Of a stretch of 64,000 nt of DNA, positions 3,188 through 54,962 are shown piece after piece; positions within the stretch are counted from its first letter, which is position 1, and each line of letters starts with the position of its first letter. Source of the DNA: Gossypium raimondii (taxonomy: Eukaryota; Streptophyta; Magnoliopsida; Malvales; Malvaceae); NCBI RefSeq assembly GCF_025698545.1, contig NC_068567.1, forward strand, positions 56,239,371 through 56,303,370, read 5' to 3'. A program made the position numbers and the translations under genes. The notes beneath the pieces were generated by a model, which did no database searches, was not told the origin of the DNA, and saw nothing but the letters and a program-made list of their open reading frames with translations.

Positions 3188-4582
3188 TCAGTCTCGTCTC
3201 GATGCCTTAGCTTTTCCCTTCCTTCGGGATGTTTGCTTCGGCTTACGTCGTTTCGTGACTCGAGCCGTCCTACTCTTCGCATTAACTCTGGTCAACTGTC
3301 CCACATGCATCACTTCTTTTCCCTTGAAGTCTGATGCACCACTCACCTCTCCCATAGGTGGAAGCCTTGTCGATGACTTGGCCAACTCTGACGCTTCACT
3401 CAACTCGAGTCTCATTGGTCCCAGCTTCACTATTTTCATCGCAACTCTTTCCTCTAAGTCCGATGACAAACTCACCTCTTCCTTGGGTGGAAGCCCCTCC
3501 GATGACTCACCAAGCTCAGATGTTGTCTTTCCTTTGACTCCGGCTTGCTTTGGACAGTTCCGCAACTCATGCAGACCACGGCACAAGAAGCACTTTACTT
3601 GCTTCTTATTGCTCCTTTTTGCCCTTTTGGCTTTGGCTTTTCCCTTGCTCGAACCAAGATTCTTGGGCTCCTTGTCTGCTCCATCGTTTCCTTCGATGAC
3701 AGACTTCCTCGGACACTTCCGCAACCTATGCGGACCATGACACAAGAAGCACTCCGCTGGCTTCTTTTCGCTTTTGACCTCCTTGGCTTCGACACCCCTT
3801 GCGTTCGAACCAAGTACCAAGGCCTTACCCACCTGCTTCTCCATAAGCGCGGATTTCTTCGGACATTTCTTCAACATGTGTGGACCGTCGCAAAGAAAGC
3901 ATTTCAGCTTGTCCCTTTTCCTCTTGGGTATCTTTTTCCCAACTCGTGGTTTCCCATTACCACCATTGTCGCCATTGCCATTGCCATCAACATTATCTTC
4001 CTTGTAATCCATTTCACATACGCCCCTTCCATCGGACTTGGAAGACCCAAGCTTGTATTTCCCTAGACCAAGCTTCACCACGGACTCAACTACCGTCATG
4101 GCTTCCGACAGCTTTTGGACACCTCTTTGTTCCACCTTCTGTCTGACCCACGGCTTCAATCCCTTTTCAAAAGCAAGCAATGCTTCTTCATCAGTCACAT
4201 CTGAAACTTGGAGCATGAGTTCCTTGAACTCTTGAACATACTTCCCCACTGTGCCCAGTTGCATTATCCCTTGCAACTTTGCCCGAGCTTCTTTCTCGAC
4301 AAATTCTGGGTAAAACTGTCCCTTCAACTCGCATTGGAACTCTTGCCACGTCCCAATCTCACCTTTCCTTTTATCTGTGGTCCTACCTCGCCACCATAAA
4401 AGCACAATGTCAGTAAGAAACATTGAAGCAGTGTTTACCTTAACCGCATCCTCCATGATGCCTTTGGCACGGAAGTAGTTTTCCATCCTCCACAAGAAAT
4501 TGTCCACATCACATGCAGATCTTGTCCCCACAAACTCTTTCGGCTTTGGGACATCCTCGTTACTGAGTGCTGCATTTGCCAC
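3188..4582 (-). CDS. GAG polyprotein with three CCHC zinc knuckles
   Basis: This open frame of 464 codons sits inside the retrotransposon. Residues about 14-170 match the plant retrotransposon gag/capsid fold (PKEF...WRMENYF, the WW of LLWWRGR, the F-Y-PEF box). An acidic/Gly-Asn linker follows. Then come three zinc knuckles of the C-X2-C-X3-H-X4-C form at residues 228-240, 278-290 and 331-343, separated by Lys-rich spacers. The tail is basic. GAG would coat the RNA in virus-like particles in the cytoplasm. The first codon is GTG, not ATG, and the frame overlaps the end of the upstream coiled-coil frame (4560-4958) in another register. The natural product was therefore probably one longer protein now split by a frameshift, unless ribosomes shift here. 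There is no pol domain downstream. Three knuckles is more than the usual one or two. Confidence 0.85.
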   Translation of the reverse strand: MANAALSNEDVPKPKEFVGTRSACDVDNFLWRMENYFRAKGIMEDAVKVNTASMFLTDIVLLWWRGRTTDKRKGEIGTWQEFQCELKGQFYPEFVEKEARAKLQGIMQLGTVGKYVQEFKELMLQVSDVTDEEALLAFEKGLKPWVRQKVEQRGVQKLSEAMTVVESVVKLGLGKYKLGSSKSDGRGVCEMDYKEDNVDGNGNGDNGGNGKPRVGKKIPKRKRDKLKCFLCDGPHMLKKCPKKSALMEKQVGKALVLGSNARGVEAKEVKSEKKPAECFLCHGPHRLRKCPRKSVIEGNDGADKEPKNLGSSKGKAKAKRAKRSNKKQVKCFLCRGLHELRNCPKQAGVKGKTTSELGESSEGLPPKEEVSLSSDLEERVAMKIVKLGPMRLELSEASELAKSSTRLPPMGEVSGASDFKGKEVMHVGQLTRVNAKSRTARVTKRRKPKQTSRRKGKAKASRRD

Positions 4583-4958
4583 TCCTTCCTACGACTGCTC
4601 GACACAATGTCAGCTCTCCCTCGAGCTCCTCTATTCTTGTGATCAAAGCCCTCGTCGTGGCCATTGTTTCCTCTTTCAAAGCCATCATCATGGCCTCGAG
4701 AGCATCATTCCTGTCCGACAGCTTATCCCTGTGTGAATTAAACAACTCGTTTACCTTATCCATGGTGGAACCAAGAGACATCTTTACATAGTCTCTGGAC
4801 TGCTCCTTCCAGTTTGCTATGCGATCCTCGACCCCATCGAGTGCCTCCTTTACATCGTCCATGAATCCCTCGAGTTCTCCCACACGTTCCTCTACTGCCG
4901 ATAATGTCTCCCTCAAAGACTTCCTCGCCCACATTTGTTCGAACTCTTCTTTCGACAT
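4560..4958 (-). CDS. Coiled-coil N-terminal part of GAG, separate frame
   Basis: The frame has 132 codons and starts with a real ATG about 70 bases inside the 5' LTR boundary, just past the primer site. It is rich in Glu, Lys, Leu and Arg, with heptad-like spacing over residues 15-110, and so is predicted to be coiled coil. Comparable plant gag proteins carry such a segment before the capsid domain. It ends by overlapping the start of the gag frame by 23 bases in a different register. I infer that it is the amino-terminal part of the same protein, separated by a frameshift. Whether this is a mutation or programmed shifting cannot be told from one copy. Confidence 0.7.
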   Translation of the reverse strand: MSKEEFEQMWARKSLRETLSAVEERVGELEGFMDDVKEALDGVEDRIANWKEQSRDYVKMSLGSTMDKVNELFNSHRDKLSDRNDALEAMMMALKEETMATTRALITRIEELEGELTLCRAVVGRSGKCSTQ

Positions 4959-5024: not shown

Positions 5025-5584
5025 TGTCACGGGCTAGACCTTTCGTCTCGCAAACCGTGCGGCCTTAGGCGATCCGTTTGCTCCAAACTCGCCTAAGTCA
5101 GCCTTTACACCCAAAAGTGAGGATTCCTTAGAACTCCTCTAAGGCACCAATTTGTATAGCGGAAGCGATTGTGCCAAAAGAAGCTACAGAAGAACAACAG
5201 AAAGAGCGCTTGCAAAGTGTTTGAGTAAATGCTCTCAATTCTTATTCACAAAGAATAATGAAACAATTCAAGAGTGAGTACAAATGAGGGGGAGGCTCTC
5301 TATTTATAGTTGAGCTCCCCCAAAATCGATGGCTACAATTAAAAGCTGTATTCAATTAGGACTCTAAGTTTACAGAATTAGAAGCTGTGTACAATTAGAA
5401 CTTCTAAGACTACATAGTCCTATCTTCATTATCGGGCCAACCAGGCTTCAATCTGACAGGCCTGTCCAACAGCTCTTTGAATCGGGCCAGTTCTCGTAGG
5501 CCAAATGATCCCCATCTAAGCAATAGACCTCCATTGGATGCATTTGGTGTGATGGTCACGGGCTTTGAACTGCGGCCCGTGACA
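5025..5584 (-). repeat. 5' LTR of the gag-only retrotransposon
   Basis: The LTR is 560 bp with TGTCAC...GTGACA ends. On the minus strand it carries a clear TATA box (CTATAAATAGA, about 5299-5309), which would drive transcription towards the gag frames. It is followed outside by the CTAG target duplication. Confidence 0.93.
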
Positions 5585-28941: not shown

Positions 28942-31900
28942 CTAGACTAGACTAGCTTGATCAGAGGCTTCCTCGTAGTAGCAGTAATACGGTGAGAGGT
29001 TTCCATCCTGATTGGCCTTGAGTTTGTTCTCCCCACCAGCTTCTTGCAACAATTTGACCACCTTCCGCATTGACAGGCGGTTAATGGGAAGAGCATCAGT
29101 GCAAAGGATACCAATATCGAGTACCCTGCAAATTTCTTCCTTGTACGTAGAGTCCAGTCTCGGGTCAATTACCTGATCCACTCCCTTTTGGTTGTAGGTA
29201 GCACAGACCCATTTCACCATGTCTTTCTCCCCAAACTCCGGATCGGTAGGGGTTTTACCAGTAACCAACTCTAAGATGACAACTCCAAAGCTGTAGATAT
29301 CACTCTTCTCATTCACTCTTAGGGTATATGCATACTCTGCATACAAATGAAAACAAATTGAATAATAAGAGGTAATATAGATCTTACAGGACAGATTACT
29401 AAGTTCATGTTAACAGGCCAATGTAGCCACTTATCCATGTCTAAGCTTAACCAATCAACACAAGTATTGTATATTCTAAATGAAAAGGGGGAATTAATAT
29501 AAATAAGCATCAACAAGGAACAAACCTGGTGCAATGTAACCACACGAGCCTGCAATCACAGACATTGATTCAGCACCTTTCCCGACTCCTTTAACAATCT
29601 TAGCAACTCCAAAATCCGCAACTCTGGCACCAAATTCATGGTCTAACAATATATTGTTTGATTTCACATCCCGATGAACAATTGGAGGAACACAATCATG
29701 ATGCAAATAGGATAATCCCTCAGCTGCATCTAAAGCAATCTTATACCTAGTGGGCCAATCTAACAAGCCCCCCTTGCTGCTATGCAACAAATCCCCCAAG
29801 CTCCCATTCGGCATATACTCATAAACTAAAAGTTTGTCATCTCCTGTAATGCAACAACACCACAGTCTCACTATATTCTTGTGTCTAATTTTTCCCAGCA
29901 TTTCAACTTCAGTTTCAAACTCATCTCTCTCCATATCGGCCGCACTCAAAGAATCTTCTTTCTTAACTCCACTGAGTTTCTTCACAGCTACCGCATCACC
30001 ATTGCTCAGCACAACTTTGTAAACTTTGCCAGAACCTCCACTTCCTATCACATTCTCTTCCTTGAGGCAATCTGCAATCTCGTATTCACTAAAACCGATC
30101 TTATGAAATGATCTCCACTTCGTTACAGTAGCTCTTTTCTTGTTCTTTTTGAAACTCCGGTACTTCATGAAGAACCAAACAACCCCTACAACAAAAACCA
30201 AGCCAGCCAGTACAAAAATGGATCTAAGAATCCACATATTGGTTTGGTTCTTAGATCGACTTATCTTCGGACAAAGACCTTCCAAGTCACCACATAATCC
30301 AGGATTACCCAAGAAGCTATTCTTGTAATTTTCCTTGGCATAAAAGGGAGGGAGCTCTCCTGAAAGCTGATTATTCGACAAATTAAACACGTTCAGCTTT
30401 AAATTCTGCAACTCAATTGGGACTTTCCCGGAAAATGAGTTACTTGAAAGATCAAGATAATTAAGTACAGGCAAGCTACCAATATCACCAGGAATACTAC
30501 CGGATAGCCTATTGTTAGCCAAATTTAACTCATTCAAACTCATACATTCCTTAATTTCTTCGGGGATTCTTCCATCAATCTCATTTTCACTGAGATCAAG
30601 CCTGACCAACTGCTTCAGTTTTACCAAAGATAGAGGAATGTGACCGGTGAACTCGTTTCCACTAGCAGACATCTCTACCAGTGTCTCCAAGGACCCGATT
30701 TCATCAGGTAACGACCCGGAAAAACGGTTGTTGGAAATTGACAGAATAGAGAGATTATGAGCACTTGAAATCGACTTTGAAATTTCCCCACTAAAGGAAT
30801 TTTCAGCAAGCTCGAGCAAAAATACTCTGGGTAGGCCCCAGAACCCGTCTGGAACCCGACCCGAGAAACGGTTGTGCTTGAACCGAACCCGGCCCAAGCT
30901 CTGGCATTTTCCTAGACTTTCCGGAATTTCGCCCGAAAATGAATTGAAAATCAGAATAATATCCCCTAACTGCCCCTTTGCGCACAAATTCTCTGGAATT
31001 GTGCCAGAAAACTGATTATAAGAGACATCCAAACTTTGTAGTGGCGAGTTTACACCAAGTTGACTCGGCAATGGTCCACTGAGTTTGTTGTTGAACAGTT
31101 TCAGCTCTTGCAACTTTTTCGACACAGTTATGCTCTCTGGTAAAGTCCCTTCTAGCCGGTTATTATAAACATTTAATGACTCAAGCTGTAACCCGCATAA
31201 ACCGGTTGGAATTGTCCCAGTTAACTCGTTCATAGCCGCGTCGAATCGCTTCAACGTAGTTAAATTCCCCATATTTAACGGCAACTCGCCTGATAGAGAG
31301 TTGTTATATAACTCAATTTGCTCAATGCTTTTCAACTGGGAAATTGAACTAGGGATGGATCCAGAGAGCTGGTTAAGGGAAAAATCAAGGTTTCGGAGGC
31401 TAACCAACCGACCGAAACTCGACGGAATTTGGCCGACGAGGTTACAGTCGGCAAGAAAAAGCTGCTCAAGGTTCGTTAAGTTACCTAGTTCGCTCGGTAT
31501 ATGAGACGGAGAAAAAGGGTTATAAGCGAGATCCAGTTCTTTTAGAGTGGAAATATTACCCAAAATAGCAGGAATGGTGGCGTCGAGGAGATTTCCCGCC
31601 AAGTTGAGACACCGGAGCCGTTGGAATTGTCCGAAAGTCGCGGGAATTTCGCCAGAGAAGTTGTTCCCGTAGAGGATTAGATTTTCGAGGGTGGGAATAT
31701 TGGGGAGGGAGAGAGGGAGAGAGCCAACAAGGAGATTCTGGGAGAGATCGAGGGTGGTTAGATTTTGACAGGTGGAAATATCAAGGGGTAGGGAAGAGTT
31801 GATGGAATTATTGGCGAGAGAGATGGAGCGAAGATAAGGGAGACGGCAGAGGAAAAGCGGGAAAGGCCCAACGAGCTGGAAATCAGAAAGGTCGACAGAC

Positions 31901-32097
31901 TGAACACGGGAAGTGGGGGAGTGGCAAGAAATACCTTGCCAATTGCAAGGGGTGTCGTCTCGGCGGTTCCAGGAGGAGAGGGCGTTGGTTGGGTCGGAAA
32001 GGCTTTGCCTGACCTGCAACAGGTACAGACCTTCCTGGTTTAGAGCAAAGGCATAGGGCAGAGGATTCAAAAATAGGAGCAAGAATACCAGAAACAT
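28942..32097 (-). CDS. HSL1: HAESA-like LRR receptor kinase (HSL1-like, LRR-XI)
   Basis: The two minus-strand exons, 32097-29526 and 29336-28942, are separated by a 189-bp GT-AG intron. They give 988 residues, against about 1000 for HAESA/HSL1, which also have a single intron at this site. A signal peptide (1-18) precedes the CNWQGISC cap. About 20 leucine-rich repeats of the extracellular plant type (LxGxIP) follow to about residue 600. A transmembrane helix lies at about 624-643 and a full kinase domain at about 675-955. The glycine loop GSGGSGKVYK, VAVKKL lysine, HRDVKSNN catalytic loop, DFG and GYIAPE are all intact. The tail SPYY...SDQASLV is HSL1-like. HAESA/HSL1 sit in the plasma membrane and bind IDA-type or CLE peptides with SERK co-receptors, controlling abscission and stomatal or other development. 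In subdomain XI the usual NRPSM reads NRLSM (CCG to CTG). Confidence 0.93.
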
Positions 32098-32626
32098 GGT
32101 TTGGGTTAGAGGAGAGTGGAGTGTGGTTGTATTGGGATGCTGTTGCGTTGTTTAGAGTGAAGGAGGGAGGCATGGAAGACGGCAAAGCTTTTGGATATTT
32201 TAAGGGAGAAAAGGTGGGTGTGGGAGTGGGTCCTGGTTTGCTACTGGGGTCTTACATCAGATGAAGATGGTGAAGTGTGTTGAACCCAAGAGATGAAGCG
32301 CAATTTGGATCAATTTTCAAAAGTTGTTTGAAACTTTAGACAAACACAGGAAACTTCCCGGTCAAAAGAGTTCAGTAGTGATCACAGTGCTTTTGGCAAA
32401 TAATTTAACTCCACTACATCTTCAGGTAATGTAACTGTTTACACTATCTAATCTAAATTGAGCTTCTAATATAGAACCAGCATTTATTTAATGAAGGTTT
32501 AATATCGATTTTTAGATTATTTAAACCCACCATTTGGAAAAGAATGGAGTTGATTAGATCCAAAATAGCATAATGAATTAAGATAATAACTCCATTGCTT
32601 TTAAATTCAATCCCAATAAGATAATA

Positions 32627-33959
32627 AGGGCAAATTACACCAACACTCACTCAACTTTGATGCAGCTGGGAAAACAATTACTCTTGTTTCAATTCAGTTA
32701 TTCAACTTTTGAAAAATAATAAAACAATCCTTTTAACCATTTTCCATTATAGACATAACGGAAAAGTGACATGGCATTTAACAGACTCCTTTTTGTCATT
32801 AAGTGGCCAGTTGGAAGGTTAGTTGTCATTTAAGCAGCCCTATAACCCTAGTTGGGCAATAGAAAAGAAGAAGAAAAGAAATGGAGATGTACAACCATTT
32901 TGTTCCTCCAAGGTGGAGCCACCACTCAATTCGTTGCTATCCGTTGAATCTCTGTTCCTTTTTTTCTTCTCTTTTTTTTTCTTAACTCTAGTCGTCGTCG
33001 TTCATACTAAATGGCTCCTCTTTGCCTCTCAAATCTCACTTTAGATTTCCCAATAGGCCTTCAAAATCCCAAGATTAATACCTCAAAGCTTCGAACAAGG
33101 CTTCAACGGATCTCCGTCGTCCACTGTTGGATCACCACAATATTCTGGCCACAGCTTTTCTTCGACCAACCATGACTCTTGACCGCTCGGATCATCAAAC
33201 TGGTGGCCCAAGTTCTCTAACCCGTAAAACCCGAAATAGGTGTGGGTTTCTTCTATTTTTATTATATTCTTTTTTAGTTTTTTTTACCTCTCTCTTTTGA
33301 TGCAAACCAATTTAGGGTTATTGTTCTTTTTTTGTTGGTTTGATTTTAGATGCTTGCTATTTGGTATTTTTGTTTTTGCTAGTTTTTGTTGTTTTGTTGT
33401 CGATTTTGATTTCAAACTTCATAACATTGCCACAAGCAGGAGCTCCAACCAAACTAGTGTTGGTGTTCGGATCATTCTTATTGAAGGAACCGACATTACG
33501 AGGATTGTTGTAGTGGTCGATAATGTTTACATAGTAAAGATGTGGAAGAATCTGAATGGGTTGTGATGGGATCTCCCTTGACGTTAGCCCAAGCAATCGT
33601 TTTGATGCCAGCCTCAATATTTTTGCCATCGATTTTCAATTTTCACTACCAAGGAAAGAGCTTTTTCAGGTTCCATTTTTTTCCCTAAAATTTTGTTCCC
33701 ATTTTGAGCCTTGATTTTGGGTAACTCCACGTCAATCTGCCACGTTAGGTAATTGGGTTTCAAACGTGGCAAGTTAATTAGCCATGTCAATTGTCTCGTT
33801 AAGCCTGTGATGGAAAATGTTAATGGGTGACTGATTTGTCACTTTTCAATGTTAGTAGATAATTTGTTATTTTTCGAAAGTTAAGTGACAGGATTGAAAT
33901 CAAAATGACTATTGTATCGACTGCATCAAAGTTGAGTGACTGTTAGTGGAATTTTCCCT
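32627..33959. mobile_element. Non-autonomous TIR transposon with captured gene fragment
   Basis: The ends are long imperfect inverted repeats. The left end reads AGGGCAAATTACACC then CACTCACTCAACTTTGATGC. The right end, on the other strand, reads AGGGAAAATTCCACT then CAGTCACTCAACTTTGATGC. Similarity, including a GACATGGC box, extends patchily for close to 190 bp. TAATA flanks both ends (32622-32626 and 33960-33964) and may be the target duplication. There is no transposase. The interior (33,399-33,629) holds a piece of the ISU iron-sulfur scaffold gene. Another GC-richer block at about 33,060-33,240 may be a second captured piece. Long TIRs plus a gene fragment suggest a Pack-MULE. A 5-bp duplication does not fit the 8-9 bp of Mutator elements, so the superfamily is open. 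Confidence 0.75.
33399..33629 (-). pseudogene. ISU1: Captured 5' exon of ISU iron-sulfur scaffold gene
   Basis: On the minus strand, from the ATG at 33629, the frame reads a mitochondrial-type leader (RLASKRLLGLTSRE). It continues with the ISU/IscU core: IDHYNNPRNVGSF, then LVGAPACGNVMKFEIKID. In real ISU proteins this is residues 1 to about 75 and includes the first cluster-binding cysteine (in GAPACGD). The second and third ligand Cys, the LPPVK motif and the rest are absent. After about 33,399 the frame runs into Lys/Thr/Asn codons from non-ISU sequence. ISU proteins assemble Fe-S clusters in mitochondria; this fragment cannot. The piece lies in antisense orientation within a TIR transposon, which explains how it came here. 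Confidence 0.8.
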
Positions 33960-33964
33960 TAATA

Positions 33965-44949: not shown

Positions 44950-47360
44950 TTTAATTTGTTTGACCCTACTTTTTTATTGGTTAATAAGTTTAATATTAAT
45001 ATTTTTTTGTTAATTTATCTTTATTTTTTGAGTTAAATTTGGATCTTTCAAAAAAAAGGCAAATCACCTTTTTTTTATGAGAATACTGATTAAAACATTA
45101 ATTTTTAACAATATTAATGTGACAACTTGTGTACAATCTATGTATACTTTATGCTAATATGACACTATTTGTTTTATATGTTGCTCCAACAAATAATTTA
45201 AAAGTTCATAAAATTTAAAAAAATAGCATAAATATCGTGAATTATCATGAGAGCTATCATGCTTAAAATTGAACGTTGTAGTTAGTATTTTGTTAACAAA
45301 AACAACTTGATTCTTTTAAAATATTCTTGGTCAAATTTGACTGTTTTTAAAAGTTAAGGATCAAATTTAGTTAAAAAGAACAATGGTCAAATTGATCAAA
45401 TATGTAAAGATTAAGGTTAAATCTATCATTGTACCTTTTAAGGCATTTAACTGGACAATCTGCTTTTAAGTTTAGGTAAAATTATGACTATTTTGAAATT
45501 GAAATTGAAATTCTTTAATTTAATTTAACGTGATTTAATTTTTTATAATATAATTAATATTGTTAAATATTTCAATTAAAAGGTAATGAAAAAATGTTAG
45601 CATGATGAGTTGGAAATGATATTTTTAAGCAAAAGTTGACATCAACAACCTTCTTTTAAGATTAAATTATGTTATATAAACAAAATTCCAAAATTAGAAA
45701 CTGATGTTAAATTTAGAAACCAAAAATATGAAACCCGAATTACACCCTAATACATAAATGACCCACAAGTGTGACCCAATAATGAAAACCCCATACCCAT
45801 ATCCCATAATAACAACCCAAATACCTCTGATCTGCACATATATGCTCCTCCTATCAACCTTCAACTGTTCAAAGTTCAGTCCCAAAAATATAAATTAAAA
45901 ATTTGAAATGTGTTATCTAATTTAGAAAAAAATATATCTATGCGTTGAATTTTCGGTTGATTTTACAATTTAGTAACGTTGTTAACACTATATACCATAA
46001 TAAAACACATATTGTTAGTTCAAGTACCACATTGGATATTTTATAAAAAGTACAAGTACCATGATAAAACATATATTGATAGTTCAGTAGATCTCGAGCC
46101 AACCCGAATTCAATTTAAACAATAAAAAATATTTTAGAATTTAAATTTAATTATGAAATATCAATTAAAATATTTTTTAATTTTTTAATAGTAAAATGTG
46201 CTTTTTGGATGGGCCAATCCGAACACAGGGTTGTGCATGAAAACTTTTTTAGAACCGAGCTTCAACTCAACCCATGAACGGCTCTATAGTTTAGGTACCA
46301 CATTAAGCATTTTATAAAAGTATAAGTACCAAATGTGACATCATCTCTGTAAATAAATACAAATTATAATCAACAACATAAACAATTATTTTATAAATTA
46401 TAACAACAAAATTAAATATTTAAATTAGCTTTGACAGGGTTCTAACAATTTTTTAATCGGTTTGATTGGTCGGATTAAGAAATCGAAGTTTAATCGGTTT
46501 AATTATTGGTTCAACCAATTTATAGTGATTCTCAATTTAGTTGGCTTAATGTCACTCTCTAGATTGGTTCTCGATTCAAGTAACTGGTTTAGTCCGATTC
46601 AAACGTCATTGATGACTATGTTTGATAAAATGAAAAAATTGGTAGCTGCTGAATTATGTGTTTCCTGATGGAGCGGAGTTTTAAAGGGTCAAAAAGCGGA
46701 GCTCCCCCAAAAAAGGCAGCTCCTTGAATTTCAAGCTTCCGACCATTAAACATCTAAAGTCTTCCTTCAACATTACTTAAAACAAAGGAGTAATCACTAC
46801 CATGTCTTCCTAACTAACTAATCATCTCATCTCATTCCTATCAACCTCTTAACCTTTGCCACATGCAATCATGCTAAATTTCTAATATAAATATTGAAAT
46901 TTCATTCTTTAAATATATATATTTTTTATACAATATCTAGAATTACTCATAATCCTTCCCCAACCCTTAAAATAGGAAGATAATATGCTTCAACGCACTC
47001 GAACTCATGTTCTCTTGTACTGACAAGAATGCCAATGTCAATCGAGCTAAAATTCAATCAACTGATTCTTCAAATATTTAAAAATGTAGCATAAATATGT
47101 TTAACTAATTTAACTGAAACATTCCAAATCTTCCTTTCCCACTACCCTTTGATGAAAGTAAAAGGAAAAGGAGCCTAAATAAAAGAAAGTTATACGAAGC
47201 ATGATCTCTTTATTGACCGATGAAAATCAAAGATTTTAGGTGTCTCAATTGCTGGACATTCACATGCCCCATGCCCTACTTGTCATCATTATTTTCTTCC
47301 CCCACTTCTTTTTCTTTCCTCAATCGGCGCATAATTTCCCGCCCATCACCACGCCAACCA
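44950..47360. other. Intergenic region with repeat remnants
   Basis: No gene is supported until the E6-like promoter. At 45,965-46,090 and 46,285-46,345 there are 'aagtaccacattggatattttataaaaagtac' phrases related to the tandem repeat at 57.4 kb. At 46,440-46,610 there are CGGTTT/AAACCG-like phrases of a MITE remnant. A SINE copy lies at 46,929-47,055. Confidence 0.45.
46929..47055 (-). mobile_element. tRNA-derived SINE copy 2
   Basis: On the minus strand the order is TAGCTCGATTGAC (A-box-like), GAGTTCGAGTGC (B-box-like), GTTGAAGCA, TTATCTTCC, GGGTTGGGGAAGGATTATG, then CTAGATATTGTAT. It is the best preserved head of the three copies in this window. The A and B boxes are spaced as in a tRNA gene. 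Confidence 0.68.
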
Positions 47361-47362
47361 TC

Positions 47363-47371
47363 TCTATAAAA
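47363..47371 (+). promoter_or_regulatory. TATA box of the E6-like gene
   Basis: TCTATAAAA lies 69 bases before the ATG at 47440, a normal distance for a plant gene with a short leader. The strong match suits a highly expressed gene. Confidence 0.7.
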
Positions 47372-47439
47372 CAAACTTGGTCACTAATGGTAGCTTCCCA
47401 CCATCAACTTACACTTGTATTTCCTCTAATTTTCTTACT

Positions 47440-48186
47440 ATGGCTTCCTTTGCAAACCACATTGTTTTATTCTTCTTTCTGCTGTTTTCTTCTTCTGTCC
47501 AGATTCAAGCTAGGGAGAGCAAGTTCTTTAGCAAGATCTTCCACCTTGGGGCCAAAATTTCTCCTCTAGTGGTACCTACACCAACGCCAGCACCAGCACC
47601 AGCACCAGCATCGGCGCCGGCACTAGCACCGACAGTGGCACCTGCAACGGCACCGGCTAACATTGGTATCCAAGATCCTTATTATGGCCTCTATGGTCAT
47701 GGCTCTGGCATGTTTCCCCCTGCAAAAGAGGGTGTCACCACTAGCAACACTCCCACCGCTTTTGAAAACGATCTTTTCGCCGAGGAACTTGCGGATGAAA
47801 AATACGAGAGCGGCTACGAGAAAAACAACTACTATTACAACAACAACAACAACAACAACAATGGCTACACTCTCAGCAGCTACAACAACAATGGCTACAG
47901 CGGGAACTACAACACCAATGGCTACAATGACAACTACAACAACAATGGGTATGAGACAGAGAGACAAGGAATGAGTGACACCAGATTTGTAGAAGGTGGT
48001 AAGTATTATCACAATATGAAGAATGAGAATTACTACCCTAATGGATATGAGTTTTCATCAAGCAAGGGTACTAAAAATGAAGGTTACTATGGGAATACAG
48101 AGAACTCCAATGAGTTCAACTCCATGGAAGAGTTTCAGAACAAGGAAGATCAGTACATGGAGAGGCAAGAAGAGTATGTGCCCTAG
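47440..48186 (+). CDS. E6-like secreted protein (cotton fibre E6 family)
   Basis: The gene is intronless and encodes 248 residues. The ATG at 47440 starts a signal peptide (MASFANHIVLFFFLLF..., cleaved near residue 25, ARES). Residues 46-73 are a Pro/Ala-rich run of PAPAPA type, like arabinogalactan proteins. The family motif YYGLYGHGSG is at 81-90. A Tyr/Asn-rich region with poly-Asn repeats follows. The second family motif QGMSDTRFVEGGKYYHNMK comes next, and the end is acidic (EEFQNKED...EEYVP). E6 proteins are abundant in elongating cotton fibres and are secreted to the cell wall; their biochemical role is not known. An upstream in-frame ATG at 47377 would bury the signal peptide, so I reject it. 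The Pro/Ala block is an addition compared with the E6 I remember. Confidence 0.87.
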   Translation: MASFANHIVLFFFLLFSSSVQIQARESKFFSKIFHLGAKISPLVVPTPTPAPAPAPASAPALAPTVAPATAPANIGIQDPYYGLYGHGSGMFPPAKEGVTTSNTPTAFENDLFAEELADEKYESGYEKNNYYYNNNNNNNNGYTLSSYNNNGYSGNYNTNGYNDNYNNNGYETERQGMSDTRFVEGGKYYHNMKNENYYPNGYEFSSSKGTKNEGYYGNTENSNEFNSMEEFQNKEDQYMERQEEYVP

Positions 48187-49798: not shown

Positions 49799-52700
49799 TC
49801 AATCTGGATTTTGTGCTCGTCTTTCTTCTGGAACTATCAGGTATACCTCTTCCCCTTTTGTAAGTGCATCTTTTGCGAGAATATGAGCTTGGCCATTTTC
49901 TGTTCTTTGAATAAATCTGAAAGCAATTTCCTGAAAACGAGATCTATTACTCTGAATATCATGAATAATCACCCCGATAACAGATTTGTCCCTTGTTGTT
50001 GATTGACATTTGTGAATAAGCTTTTTGAATCCCTCATAATCGTGGTGATTCTATCCCCATGCGATACCTAACTTGGTTGCCTCCAAACATGCATATGCTT
50101 GACAACAAGCGGAGATGAAATGTTGAAGTGCAAAGTTGACTTTGAGGCTCTAATCGCACCATCTTGATCCCGAACAACCATTCCTGACGCCGATCTAAAT
50201 TTCCTGATATCAAAGGCTGCATCAAACTGTATTATCTCCCTTGATGTATCTCTGCCTCGTCCTGCAGCTTCAGTAGACGCGTGAGAAATCCTACTTCCCC
50301 TACTTCCTTCAAGTTCCATTAGACAACTCTGTATTTTCTGTGAAAGATCTAATCCTGATATGGCTTTCTTCTCATGTATAATATGATTCCGCGAGCCCCA
50401 TAAAACCCATAGAGCACAACAAAACAATCGAGTCTGCTCCTTTGTTCCTTTATCAAAGACCCAGGTGAGCCAACTCCAGACATTCTGACTTGTATATTCT
50501 GTTACCCACGTCATATTGAGTCTAATCCATACTTCCATGCTTACAGGACATTTTCGAAACACATGATGGCTATCTTCCTCCTCAGATTCGCAACGAGGGC
50601 ATCTGGAGTTTGCAGTTACTCTTTTATATTTCAGATTAGCCAGGGATGGGATATAGTTCCAGGAAATCCTCCATATAAGGATTAAAATCTTTTGTGGTAG
50701 TTGTAAATTCCATAGGTTCTTGTAAAATTCTTTAGTTTCGGTCTGTACTAAATAATTATTAGGCTTCAGACTAGCTTCTTGTAATAGTTTGTATGCGCTC
50801 CGAACTGAGAACTCACCTGATTGTTCACCTTTCCACACCTGCATGTCTTCACAGTCTATTCTTGCTAGAGGAATCTGCAGAATTCTCTAGGTGACATCCC
50901 TTTGGAAGGTAGTTGTAATTGTTTCTACTTTCCACGTCTTGGTTGTGCTATCAATTAGGTCTGATACTAAGTTTAACCCTTCATTTGTTTCTATGTTCTG
51001 CCATATCTCAGGTTCAATCCCTGGTATCCATCGATCATTCCAAATGGATATTGCGGTTCCTGCCCCCACTCTCCATCTTAGCCCTTTGAGAAGGGTTCCT
51101 TTCGCTGCCCAAATGCTCCTCTAGGTAAGAGATGGTAAGTTTCCCAACTGTGCATTTAGATAACTCGTCCGTGGATAATATTTAGCTTTAAGCACTCTTG
51201 CTAAAAGGGAATCTGGATAATTTATTAAACGCCATCCCTGCTTGGCTAATAAGGCGATATTAAACTGACTAAGCTTTCGGAAACCCATTCCTCCGTTTTC
51301 CTTTAAAAGACAAAGGTTTTTCCACGAGCACCAATGTATACCCCCTTTTCCACGACCTTTCTGCCACCAATATTTTGCAACAATACTTTCTAGATCTTCG
51401 CATATTGATTTTGGTAATAAAAAACATGTCATTGAATATGTCGGTATGGCTTGAAGAACAGCTTTTATGAAAACCTCTTTTCCCCCTTGTGACAAAAACC
51501 GGTTACTCCAATTCTCAATACGCTTCTTCAATCTATCTTTCAAGACCCCAAAAGATTGTTTCTTTTTTCGTCCAACCATATTCGGCAAACCCAAATAACG
51601 TTCCGGCTCATCTGAAATTCGAACACCCAGCAAATGTACAACTGAACTTCTTTCTTCATCTGAAGTGTTTTTACTAAAGAAAACGGTAGATTTAGCAAAA
51701 TTCACACATTGACCCGAACATCGCTTATACTCCTTCAGGATCTCCTTAATTGCTGTAGCTCCTTTTCTTGACGCTTCCCCGAATAAAATGCAGTCATCTG
51801 CAAATAATAAGTGTGTCACATGTGGGCCACTTCTGCTTGCCTTGACTCCTTTAATTGCCCCATTATTTAAAGCTATTCTCATCAGACTAGATAATCCCTC
51901 TCCACAAATTAGAAACAGAAATGGACTCAGTGGATCCCCTTGTCTCAGTCCCCTTTTTGGATTGAAAGTTTCACCTATACTACCGTTGACCACAACTTGA
52001 TAAGAGACGGTCGACATACAATTCATAAGAGAATCAATCCATTTTGTGGCAAAACCCATCCTCAGTATTATTTCCCGAATAAAATCCCATTCAACCCTAT
52101 CGTAGGCTTTACTCATGTCAAGTTTAACTGCCATAAAACCCTTCTTCCCTGTTCTTTTTTGTTTCAGTGTATGTAATAATTCATAGGCCAGCAATACATT
52201 GTCTGAAATTAATCTTCCCGGTACAAAAGCACTTTGGGCACTGTCAATGCATTTATCGATAATCCCTCTAAATCTATTTGCAATAGCCTTAGCCATGATT
52301 TTATAAATAACATTACATAAACTGATCGGCCTAAAATGCGTCATATTAACAGGGTCATTATTTTTGAAATAAGAACAATATGCGTTAAATTGATTGAACT
52401 AACCTCCATTCCGCCATTTAAATGAAGTAAACAAAATGCCATAACCTCCTCTCCAATGAAGTGCCAACATTTTTGATAAAATAGAGCCGGGAAGCCATCT
52501 TCACCGGGAGCCTTCGTGGGATAAATTTTAAATAATGCCTCTCTAACATCTTCTTTTGTATATGGTTCTGTAAGCTTTAGGTTATCTTCTTCAGCAACAC
52601 ATCGATCAATTCCCGTAAGTAAATTATCAAAATTCGCCTGATTGGCTGTATTAAATAAGTGCTGAAAGTAGGACCGTGCTATGCTTTCCATTTCTTGAAG

Positions 52701-53871
52701 GTCGTCTGTTACCACTCCGCAATCGCTTTGTAATTTGTGTATCGTATTTTTCCTCTTCCTTTGCGATGCTTGACTGTGAAAGAAGGCTGTATTCCTGTCA
52801 CCTAGTCTTAGCCAGTTTTGTCTTGCCCTTTGTTCCCAGTATCTTTCATCTTTTTCAATTTCAAAATTTAAATGAATCTTTGTATCAATCAGCTCAGCCA
52901 TATTACTATCGTCCCTTTCTTCTTCCATCAGTTTTAATAGCTTTGTTGATAAAAGATCTTTTTTCCCCTGCTTCCTTTTCCTTACTCGTCTCGCCCAGTC
53001 TTCCATTCCTGCTCTTAAGCTTTCCAATTTCTGTAAAAAACTCCCAGAAGCTGTTTCCCATATATGTTTGGCTTCATCCAGAAAAGAGTCTTCCAATATC
53101 CACCAGGCTTCAAATTTGAAATGGCTTTTCGGTCTTCGTTTATCTTCTTTAGCTGTGTTAATTAATAAAGGACAGTGATCAGAGAAAGAGTGAACCAGAT
53201 GTTGAACCTTCACCATAGGGAACATAGAAATCTAATTTTCGTTTGCTACACCCTTGTCCGGTCGTTCTTGTATGCATGTTTCCGGTAAATTACCTCTTTC
53301 CCATGTAAACCATCAACCAGAATATCCCACGTCAGTCAACTGGCAAAATTCTAAAGTTTCACGGAACATCTCCATTCTTTTTTCATCTCTCAACAAACCT
53401 CCTTTTTTTTTCAAAGCCGTACATAATCTCATTAAAATTTCCACACACAAACCAGGGGATTTCTTCATTTTTTCGGAGACTTTTCAGCACTGCCCATGAA
53501 TCTTCTCTATTGTGCGCATATGGTGACCCATAAAACCCAGTAAGTCGCCATGAAGTATCTCTTTCATCATCAGCCACCATCACGTCAATATGTCTTTTAG
53601 AGAAATTCTGGAGCGTAATATTAGTATCATTTTGCCACGCCAAACACAACCCTCCTCTAGTACCCTCTGAATCCACCTCTATACCATTCGCAAAACCACA
53701 TCTACGACGAATTCTTTCCATCCGATTTCTACAAAGCTTGGTCTCCATGAAGAAGACAATTTGGGGATTATAATTCTTCAGCGAATGCTGAAGTCTTCGA
53801 ACTGTCCGTGGATTGGGGAATCCACGGACATTCCAGCTTAGTATTTTCATTGTGTCCGGTCGGCTTGCCAT
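49799..53871 (-). pseudogene. LINE ORF2: endonuclease, reverse transcriptase, RNase H (broken)
   Basis: Pieces lie in order on the minus strand. The AP-type endonuclease runs 53871-53383 (MKILSWNVRG start, METKL box, FYGSPY). Its end and the linker to the polymerase are at 53225-52341, including the SDHCPLL motif. The reverse transcriptase is at 52344-51121 with FRPISLCNV, GLRQGDPLSPFLF and the catalytic FADD. A zinc-binding RVT domain (CPRCESEEE, HHVFRKCP) is at 50844-50300. RNase H starts near 50,250 (QFDAAFD) and trails to about 49,799. Frames change at least three times (near 53,390, 52,340 and 50,115), and stops interrupt the pieces. The intact enzyme would nick DNA and copy the LINE RNA at the target. 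ORF2 begins 25 bases upstream of the ORF1 stop. Confidence 0.88.
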
Positions 53872-54962
53872 TTGGCAGCCGTCGATGTTAAATGATTGAT
53901 TTCCACCACTTTCCTGCTTCTTACCATCAAACTGTCATTCTCTTTTCTTCCTGCACAATCTTCAATTTCCCTTCTAGATCTCTTTTTTCCTTCCTCTCCT
54001 ATGATAGCAACTTCCTCCAAGTCATGTTCCATCATAATACTTGTGGCATTTCCTTTTCCTTGGCCTACGCAGCATATACCTCCTTCCAGATTAAGACCAA
54101 GGATTGGATCAACAATCTTCCCAAATCTTAATTTTCCCCCTATCTTCTGTTTCTCCATTTGGACCTCTGTATTTTCTTCACCAAGACCTCCACTATCATC
54201 ATCTGTTTCCTCCCGTAACCAGATACTCTTCATTGATAGTGACCTTTGGGATTGTGCTCTGATAGAAAGATCCCATCCCAAATCTGCGATTTCTACTCCA
54301 ATATTCATTTTTGTTTCGCAGAACGAATCCCTATGGCCCAATATTCCACAGAAAAAACAAAAGAGTGACAATCTTTCATACTTAAAAGTGACGTATGAAC
54401 GTCTCTCCCCATATAAAATCTGTTTCCTCCTTTTCAAAGGACGCCTTACATCAATTTGGACCCTAATTCTCATAAAGTTCCTATTTTCTTTCCCCAAGTT
54501 TGAAACGTCATATTCCAAAAAATTCCCCAAAAAATTCCCCATCTGCATATCTAAATTTTCGAAATATAGGCCAATTGGCACCTCATGGATCTGAACCCAG
54601 AAAGGTGTGAAAACTAAAGGGACTTGTAACGGATCCTCTCCAACTTTCAATTTGTAAAGAATCAGCAGATGGTTGTTAAAGGTCTAAGGTGAACCCTTTA
54701 ACACCCTGTCCATATCCATAGCATGAAAAAATTGAAACAAAAACCTTCTTTCCCCCAGATCTCAAATTCGAACACCCCGAACCGGATGCCACAAGTTTGC
54801 CATTGTACTTTTCATAGCAGAAAAATGAATCATACTAGCTGTGAGAAAACATCCCACAAGTTGAAAAAACTCACCCTCTTTTTCCCGATTTGGATCTGTT
54901 GGTATGAGAATAGCATCCTCTTCTTCCTCATTGATTGACAAGTGGGCTAATTCATTCTCCAT
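53847..54962 (-). pseudogene. LINE ORF1: DUF4283-type nucleic-acid-binding protein (broken)
   Basis: Starting from the ATG at 54962 (MENELAHLSI), a single frame encodes the plant LINE ORF1 protein. An N-terminal DUF4283-like region contains FWVQIHEVPIGLYFENL. It is followed by a CCHC zinc knuckle (CFFCGILGHRDSFC) and a polar tail that ends at 53847. Two in-frame stops, a TGA near 54,763 and a TAG near 54,684, inactivate it; the latter sits where the family has Trp in a GSPW motif. The product normally binds LINE RNA. Confidence 0.82.

Follow-up and report, generated by a model that had tools for sequence, protein, structure and literature searches.

The stretch of Gossypium raimondii DNA analysed here, a window of 64,000 nucleotides (C3:56239371-56303370), contains a transposable element of 1,331 bp at window positions 32628-33958 that begins with GGG and ends with CCC. 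A repeat search found inverted arms of 102 nt each at 32622-32723 and 33863-33964 (76% complementary), from which the left terminal inverted repeat (TIR) is placed at 32628-32723 (+) and the right one at 33863-33958 (-). An exact copy of the 16-mer CACTCAACTTTGATGC stands at each element end, and no third site was found in the window with three mismatches allowed. These arms and the exact 16-mers bear out the long inverted ends that had been described around an ISU reading frame. The AGGG termini given in that description are real inverted ends, but the best boundary lies one base further in, at GGG...CCC; this offset was picked by eye from the flanks and then used alike on all elements. The element lies upstream of an LRR receptor kinase frame (29494-32097, -; LRR and Pkinase matches), whose start is about 530 bp away. 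A neighbouring kinase-like frame (28942-29409, -) has no Pfam match at 1e-5 and, by eye, seems to continue the receptor kinase frame.

Three segments can be distinguished between the TIRs: a segment designated block X (33002-33378), a piece of captured ISU DNA on the minus strand (33399-33677), comprising the 5' leader and the start of exon 1 of a host ISU gene, and a right interior (33678-33769). An open frame of 90 amino acids runs across the ISU piece (33357-33629, -). It matches NifU_N in Pfam (E 1.2e-13, residues 32-82) and solved IscU/ISCU chains (best E 6.3e-16), which confirms that the element holds an antisense mitochondrial ISU frame. NifU_N was the only Pfam match among the three open reading frames of the element that were scanned, and no transposase was seen in them; judged from these frames, the element appears to be non-autonomous, with no transposase of its own.

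The whole genome (750,779,957 bp in 281 contigs) was searched with the ISU protein, which returned 38 rows: the window copy, its parent gene, a paralogue on C2, other copies of the element (two of these sites being outside the fetched set described below) and two elements, L044 and L045, with a longer ISU piece. The parent gene, an ISU gene at locus L009 on C8, has a stop-free exon 1 frame and is 87% identical to the window piece over C8:60309274-60309551. Within L009, the ATG is at 4831 and exon 1 ends at 5128, an end placed by eye where a GT is seen and ISU similarity ceases; this exon codes for both the first cluster cysteine and the second, that of FGCGS. The window piece aligns to L009 4775-5052 only and therefore ends inside parental exon 1, so that capture of the whole exon by the window copy is ruled out. 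The original prediction had been of a captured first exon of a mitochondrial ISU gene; the 5' part of the host gene was indeed taken, but the piece stops within exon 1, and the alignment to the C8 parent contains no exon boundary at the fragment's end, where one had been anticipated. Reading of the region and of the copies agrees with the further expectation that the ISU piece does not continue into a full gene past the element.

A DNA search of the same genome, in which the best 40 of 669 candidates were scored, recovered at least 132 pieces of the element, counts from it being lower bounds. Forty loci were taken, namely the window copy (L001), 38 further copies and the parent gene. ISU DNA is present in 28 of the 39 fetched copies; in ten others a different interior of about 250 bp stands in its place, and one (L034, 666 bp) has neither. 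With L044 and L045 added, ISU DNA was found at 30 loci examined. In one copy (L015), an extra insertion splits the ISU piece. The family's elements have the ends GGGTAAATT...AATTTACCC, with variants, and the end motif of their TIRs is GGGTAAATTACACCAACA. A 32-base TIR pattern derived from the family's elements gave 233 forward and 232 reverse matches genome-wide with at most three mismatches, 465 in all against none for the reversed pattern used as a control, and so located the other genomic copies with shared TIRs that had been expected. Because the same piece recurs in the same place within the same element family at many sites, it is scarcely conceivable that an ordinary ISU pseudogene merely came to lie by chance between unrelated inverted repeats.

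Part of this copy number has a local source. Thirteen fetched ISU-bearing copies (L007, L012, L016, L017, L018, L021, L023, L024, L025, L027, L035, L037, and L039) lie within C5:50.86-51.78 Mb and have a near-identical flank on at least one side, as judged on the printed ends; flank identity across 300 bp, for L007, L012, and L017 only, is 0.87-0.96. Such flanks suggest that the cluster arose from one insertion, which seems to have been multiplied by local duplication and not by transposition.

Target duplications were compared in elements with two placeable ends, which comprise 17 of the 39 fetched copies together with L045 and a longer relative, L061. L012 and L017, whose flanks are common with those of L007 (one insertion duplicated on C5), were removed from these 19 ahead of the count, leaving 17 independent elements. 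At the GGG...CCC boundary, eight of the 17 (L002, L007, L014, L028, L030, L031, L034, and L045) have distinct, exact 9-bp duplications, and exact duplications of 8, 10, 11, or 12 bp occur in none. A match of at least seven of the nine bases was seen in 11 of the 17, as against 11 of 272 mismatched left/right pairs. Six elements lack a clear 9-bp duplication: the window copy, which matches at four of nine positions, and L003, L006, L008, L022, and L061. When the boundary is moved one base outward, to AGGG...CCCT, an exact match of 7 bp is found in nine of the 17, of 5 bp in four, and of 9 bp in none. We consider 9 bp the better reading, since the outermost positions of the repeat, 1 and 9, agree in 13 and 12 of the 17 elements, as often as the inner positions; matches of 7 bp one base outward are what a 9-bp repeat shorn of its outer letters would give.

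The original prediction had taken the sequence TAATA as a possible 5-bp duplication and the carrier, on that account, as a less well described TIR superfamily outside Mutator. TAATA does stand beside both ends of the window copy, and the exact 5-bp matches in four elements at the AGGG...CCCT boundary would also accord with this view. At that same boundary, however, more than twice as many elements match at 7 bp, and at GGG...CCC an exact 5-bp match is found in a single element of the 17 as against the eight that are exact at 9 bp. The duplication of the family is thus one of 9 bp, and a superfamily with a 5-bp duplication is very unlikely; the case corrects a tempting misreading of a target duplication. 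Two other superfamilies were also excluded. A duplication of 8 bp, as in hAT, is exact in none of the 17 elements at either boundary. The ends of CACTA elements start with CACTA/G; those of this family start with GGGTAAATT or near variants, which rules that superfamily out.

The longer relative, L061, has the same TIRs with ends 5,423 bp apart and encloses a frame of 202 amino acids that weakly matches DBD_Tnp_Mut, the MuDR DNA-binding domain, at E 1.1e-3 and 19 bits, below the curated 25. No catalytic transposase domain was found with Pfam in the 12 frames scanned of the 32 listed for this element. Another of its frames (L061:5257-5484, -; 75 amino acids) has a weak match to the GRF zinc ribbon, at 19.8 bits below the cutoff of 25.9.

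The long TIRs, the 9-bp duplications, and the same-TIR element L061, with its weak, sub-threshold match, together make a MULE the best reading of the carrier, and a MULE that holds a piece of a host gene is a Pack-MULE. Accordingly, the parallel with known Pack-MULEs that had been drawn for this element stands, and the placement of its carrier outside Mutator does not, given 9-bp duplications, TIRs of about 100 bp, and a relative with some likeness to MuDR. We hold with high confidence that the window element is a non-autonomous Mutator-superfamily transposon (Pack-MULE) and, with less certainty for its fusion step, has the build history described below.

Comparison with described systems agrees with this assignment. 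Passages in two papers give 8-11-bp duplications and unusually long TIRs as features of MULEs (PMC6446971) and 9-11 bp as the length of their duplications (PMC3310237). Like the Pack-MULEs of rice, Arabidopsis, tomato, and maize, which have long TIRs and 9-11-bp duplications, the present elements are non-autonomous, multicopy, and loaded with host gene fragments; they differ in the gene captured, ISU, and in the block history of the family, neither of which is a defining difference. There is likewise a similarity to PM-ZIBP of tomato, which part of PMC3310237 presents as a dicot Pack-MULE family that has been amplified, carries one captured gene fragment, and has a single putative parent; three PM-ZIBP rows of a table in that paper have A/T-rich duplications of 9-10 bp, a further likeness, and the same source mentions tandem TIRs in 13 PM-ZIBP copies. 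MuDR-type MULEs are resembled through the weak DNA-binding match in L061, an element with the TIRs of the window element, but are unlike either one in that the frames scanned contain no transposase in the window element and no catalytic domain in L061. Among the matches listed in a literature search for Pack-MULEs in Gossypium, titles and abstract openings name no ISU element, and a search joining Pack-MULE with iron-sulfur cluster found nothing, an absence only as wide as that search. A Pack-MULE with captured ISU is new as a member and known as a kind, and its carrier is not obscure.

Block X was considered as a second captured host gene, its frame having looked gene-like. A protein query of the genome with block X gave 82 rows, of which 14 were without a stop by our count, all of them in fetched copies, and no intact parent gene was found among the 82. 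Ten sites lie beyond the fetched copies: one, L063, is a further copy of the element without ISU, and at the other nine every row has stops. Since stop-free rows are confined to element copies already fetched, a second captured host gene is not claimed.

The history of the family can be read from the distribution of its blocks, by which three lineages are distinguished. Lineage A consists of the ten fetched copies that have block X and lack ISU. Lineage B consists of L044 and L045, in which block X is unmatched and the ISU piece is longest (positions 12-372 and 11-374 of a 390-position parent query); L045 has both ends, spans 971 bp, and is flanked by the exact 9-bp duplication TTTTATTTT, and L044 is cut at its right end. 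Lineage C comprises 28 copies, that of the window included; it is like A on the side of block X but has ISU DNA, and its right interior is that of B where aligned and does not align to the ISU-free copies. By eye, L008 (lineage C) and L044 (lineage B) pass from ISU to element sequence at one identical base. Within lineage C, a stretch of 89 bp by parent length (parent query 159-247; approximately 33464-33552, -, in the window) is kept in L001, L002, and L010; it is absent from 24 of the 28 copies, in which both sides of the gap were seen, and in L011 one side was seen.

For the ISU stretch, a maximum-likelihood tree with the C2 paralogue as its root was built from 28 of the 30 ISU copies (L003 and L011, with fewer than 130 aligned bases each, were left out). 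It joins the copies in one clade adjoining the C8 gene, in which L044 and L045 are the first to branch off (supports 91-93). The C2 paralogue is rejected as parent, and the topology supports a single capture. The arms are less uniform in what they indicate. The left-arm tree sets C apart (support 0.993) from a group that unites A and B, where B falls among the A copies, and the right-arm tree places B between A and C; mean arm identities (left, C-A 0.709 and C-B 0.661; right, C-B 0.747 and C-A 0.708) would slightly favor a fusion of A and B. A fusion origin of lineage C therefore rests on shared blocks and is not supported by the arm trees. A different course would be that A and B descend from a common ancestor, with block X lost in B and ISU lost in A. 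We think it likely that the ISU stretch was captured once, and that fusion with an ISU-free relative, a weakly supported step, and then the 89-bp deletion in what is now the commonest form came after.

The steps of this capture-and-fusion history may be pictured as follows. A transposase made elsewhere would act on the TIRs. While a break within a MULE was being repaired, DNA synthesis would have switched to the C8 ISU gene as template, copying some 360 bp that start 80 bp ahead of the ATG and stop 14 bp before exon 1 ends, a long piece that survives in L044 and L045. A later template switch or recombination would then have combined the left half of an ISU-free element, which brought block X, with the right half of an element that carried ISU, the ISU piece being trimmed in the process; we favor this step with moderate confidence. 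The window copy, L002, and L010 would keep the post-fusion state, and the 89-bp deletion would have produced the commonest form, multiplied in part by duplication of the one C5 insertion. A gap-filling model, in which templates are switched during break repair, has been proposed for Pack-MULEs, and a replication-fork variant has been hypothesized for animal Pack-TIRs, according to passages in PMC8277862; the present evidence fits either model alike. What the family offers is a single genome in which the build-up of a Pack-MULE can be read, with the parent and the ISU-free, long-capture, mixed, and deletion-derived, multiplied lineages all readable. Present views of transposons and of ISU biology are left as they were.

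The element is old, and its captured DNA has decayed in a characteristic way. Of the 35 differences between the window copy and its parent, 30 are C>T/G>A, and 19 of 27 CpG sites are lost; C>T/G>A changes exceed T>C/A>G in all 28 copies measured, with the C2 paralogue balanced (12 vs 13). An excess of this kind with loss of CpG is a mark of past cytosine methylation, and the decay of the copies accordingly appears methylation-like.

Translation of the window copy's ISU frame into a short leader-bearing protein is highly unlikely, even though its 90 codons are still open, as is the frame of L002, and dN/dS measured against the parent is below 1 (L001, 0.37; L002, 0.39; L044, 0.18; L045, 0.23; the paralogue, 0.10). 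Those ratios we attribute to the parent's own constraint and to the C>T bias, and between L001 and L002 themselves dN/dS is 1.1 over 75 codons. In addition, the parental ATG reads ATA in the window copy, where the frame's own start codon arose in the element and its end is element sequence; stops interrupt the frame in L010 (as L047), L044, and L045; and the 89-bp deletion, which shifts the frame, is present in 24 of the 28 fetched ISU copies. With a non-parental start codon and such a ratio between copies, nothing suggests that this frame has been kept as coding, and we reject a coding function for it.

By analogy with trans-regulation by other Pack-MULEs, the family might instead supply small or antisense RNAs that modulate the parental ISU gene, which we regard as unlikely. 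The number of loci that hold ISU DNA and the C>T decay, suggestive of methylation as for siRNA-targeted repeats, would be consistent with such a role, and part of a 2026 review (PMC13317346) describes effects that captured fragments have, by way of siRNA, on their donor genes in maize. However, the 28 measured copies are 6-14% diverged from the parent across the aligned ISU stretches, so few perfect 21-24-mers are expected. Still less probable is the more specific proposal that the fused Pack-MULE, with a frame-broken ISU fragment at about 30 loci, gives rise to small RNAs directed at the mitochondrial ISU gene, which is essential; if it were true, host control of a transposon would conflict with iron-sulfur assembly.

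Other features of the window include a retrotransposon gag frame at 3191-4588 (-), which matches Retrotrans_gag (E 5.9e-14) and Ty3_capsid (E 8e-9), and the remains of a LINE-type retroelement, recognized by eye, at 50068-54683 (-), with RVT_1 at 51124-52398 (E 2e-32). A frame at 47335-48186 (+) encodes a Pro/Ala- and Asn/Tyr-rich protein that has a leader-like start and no Pfam match at 1e-5, and which may resemble the cotton fibre protein E6.
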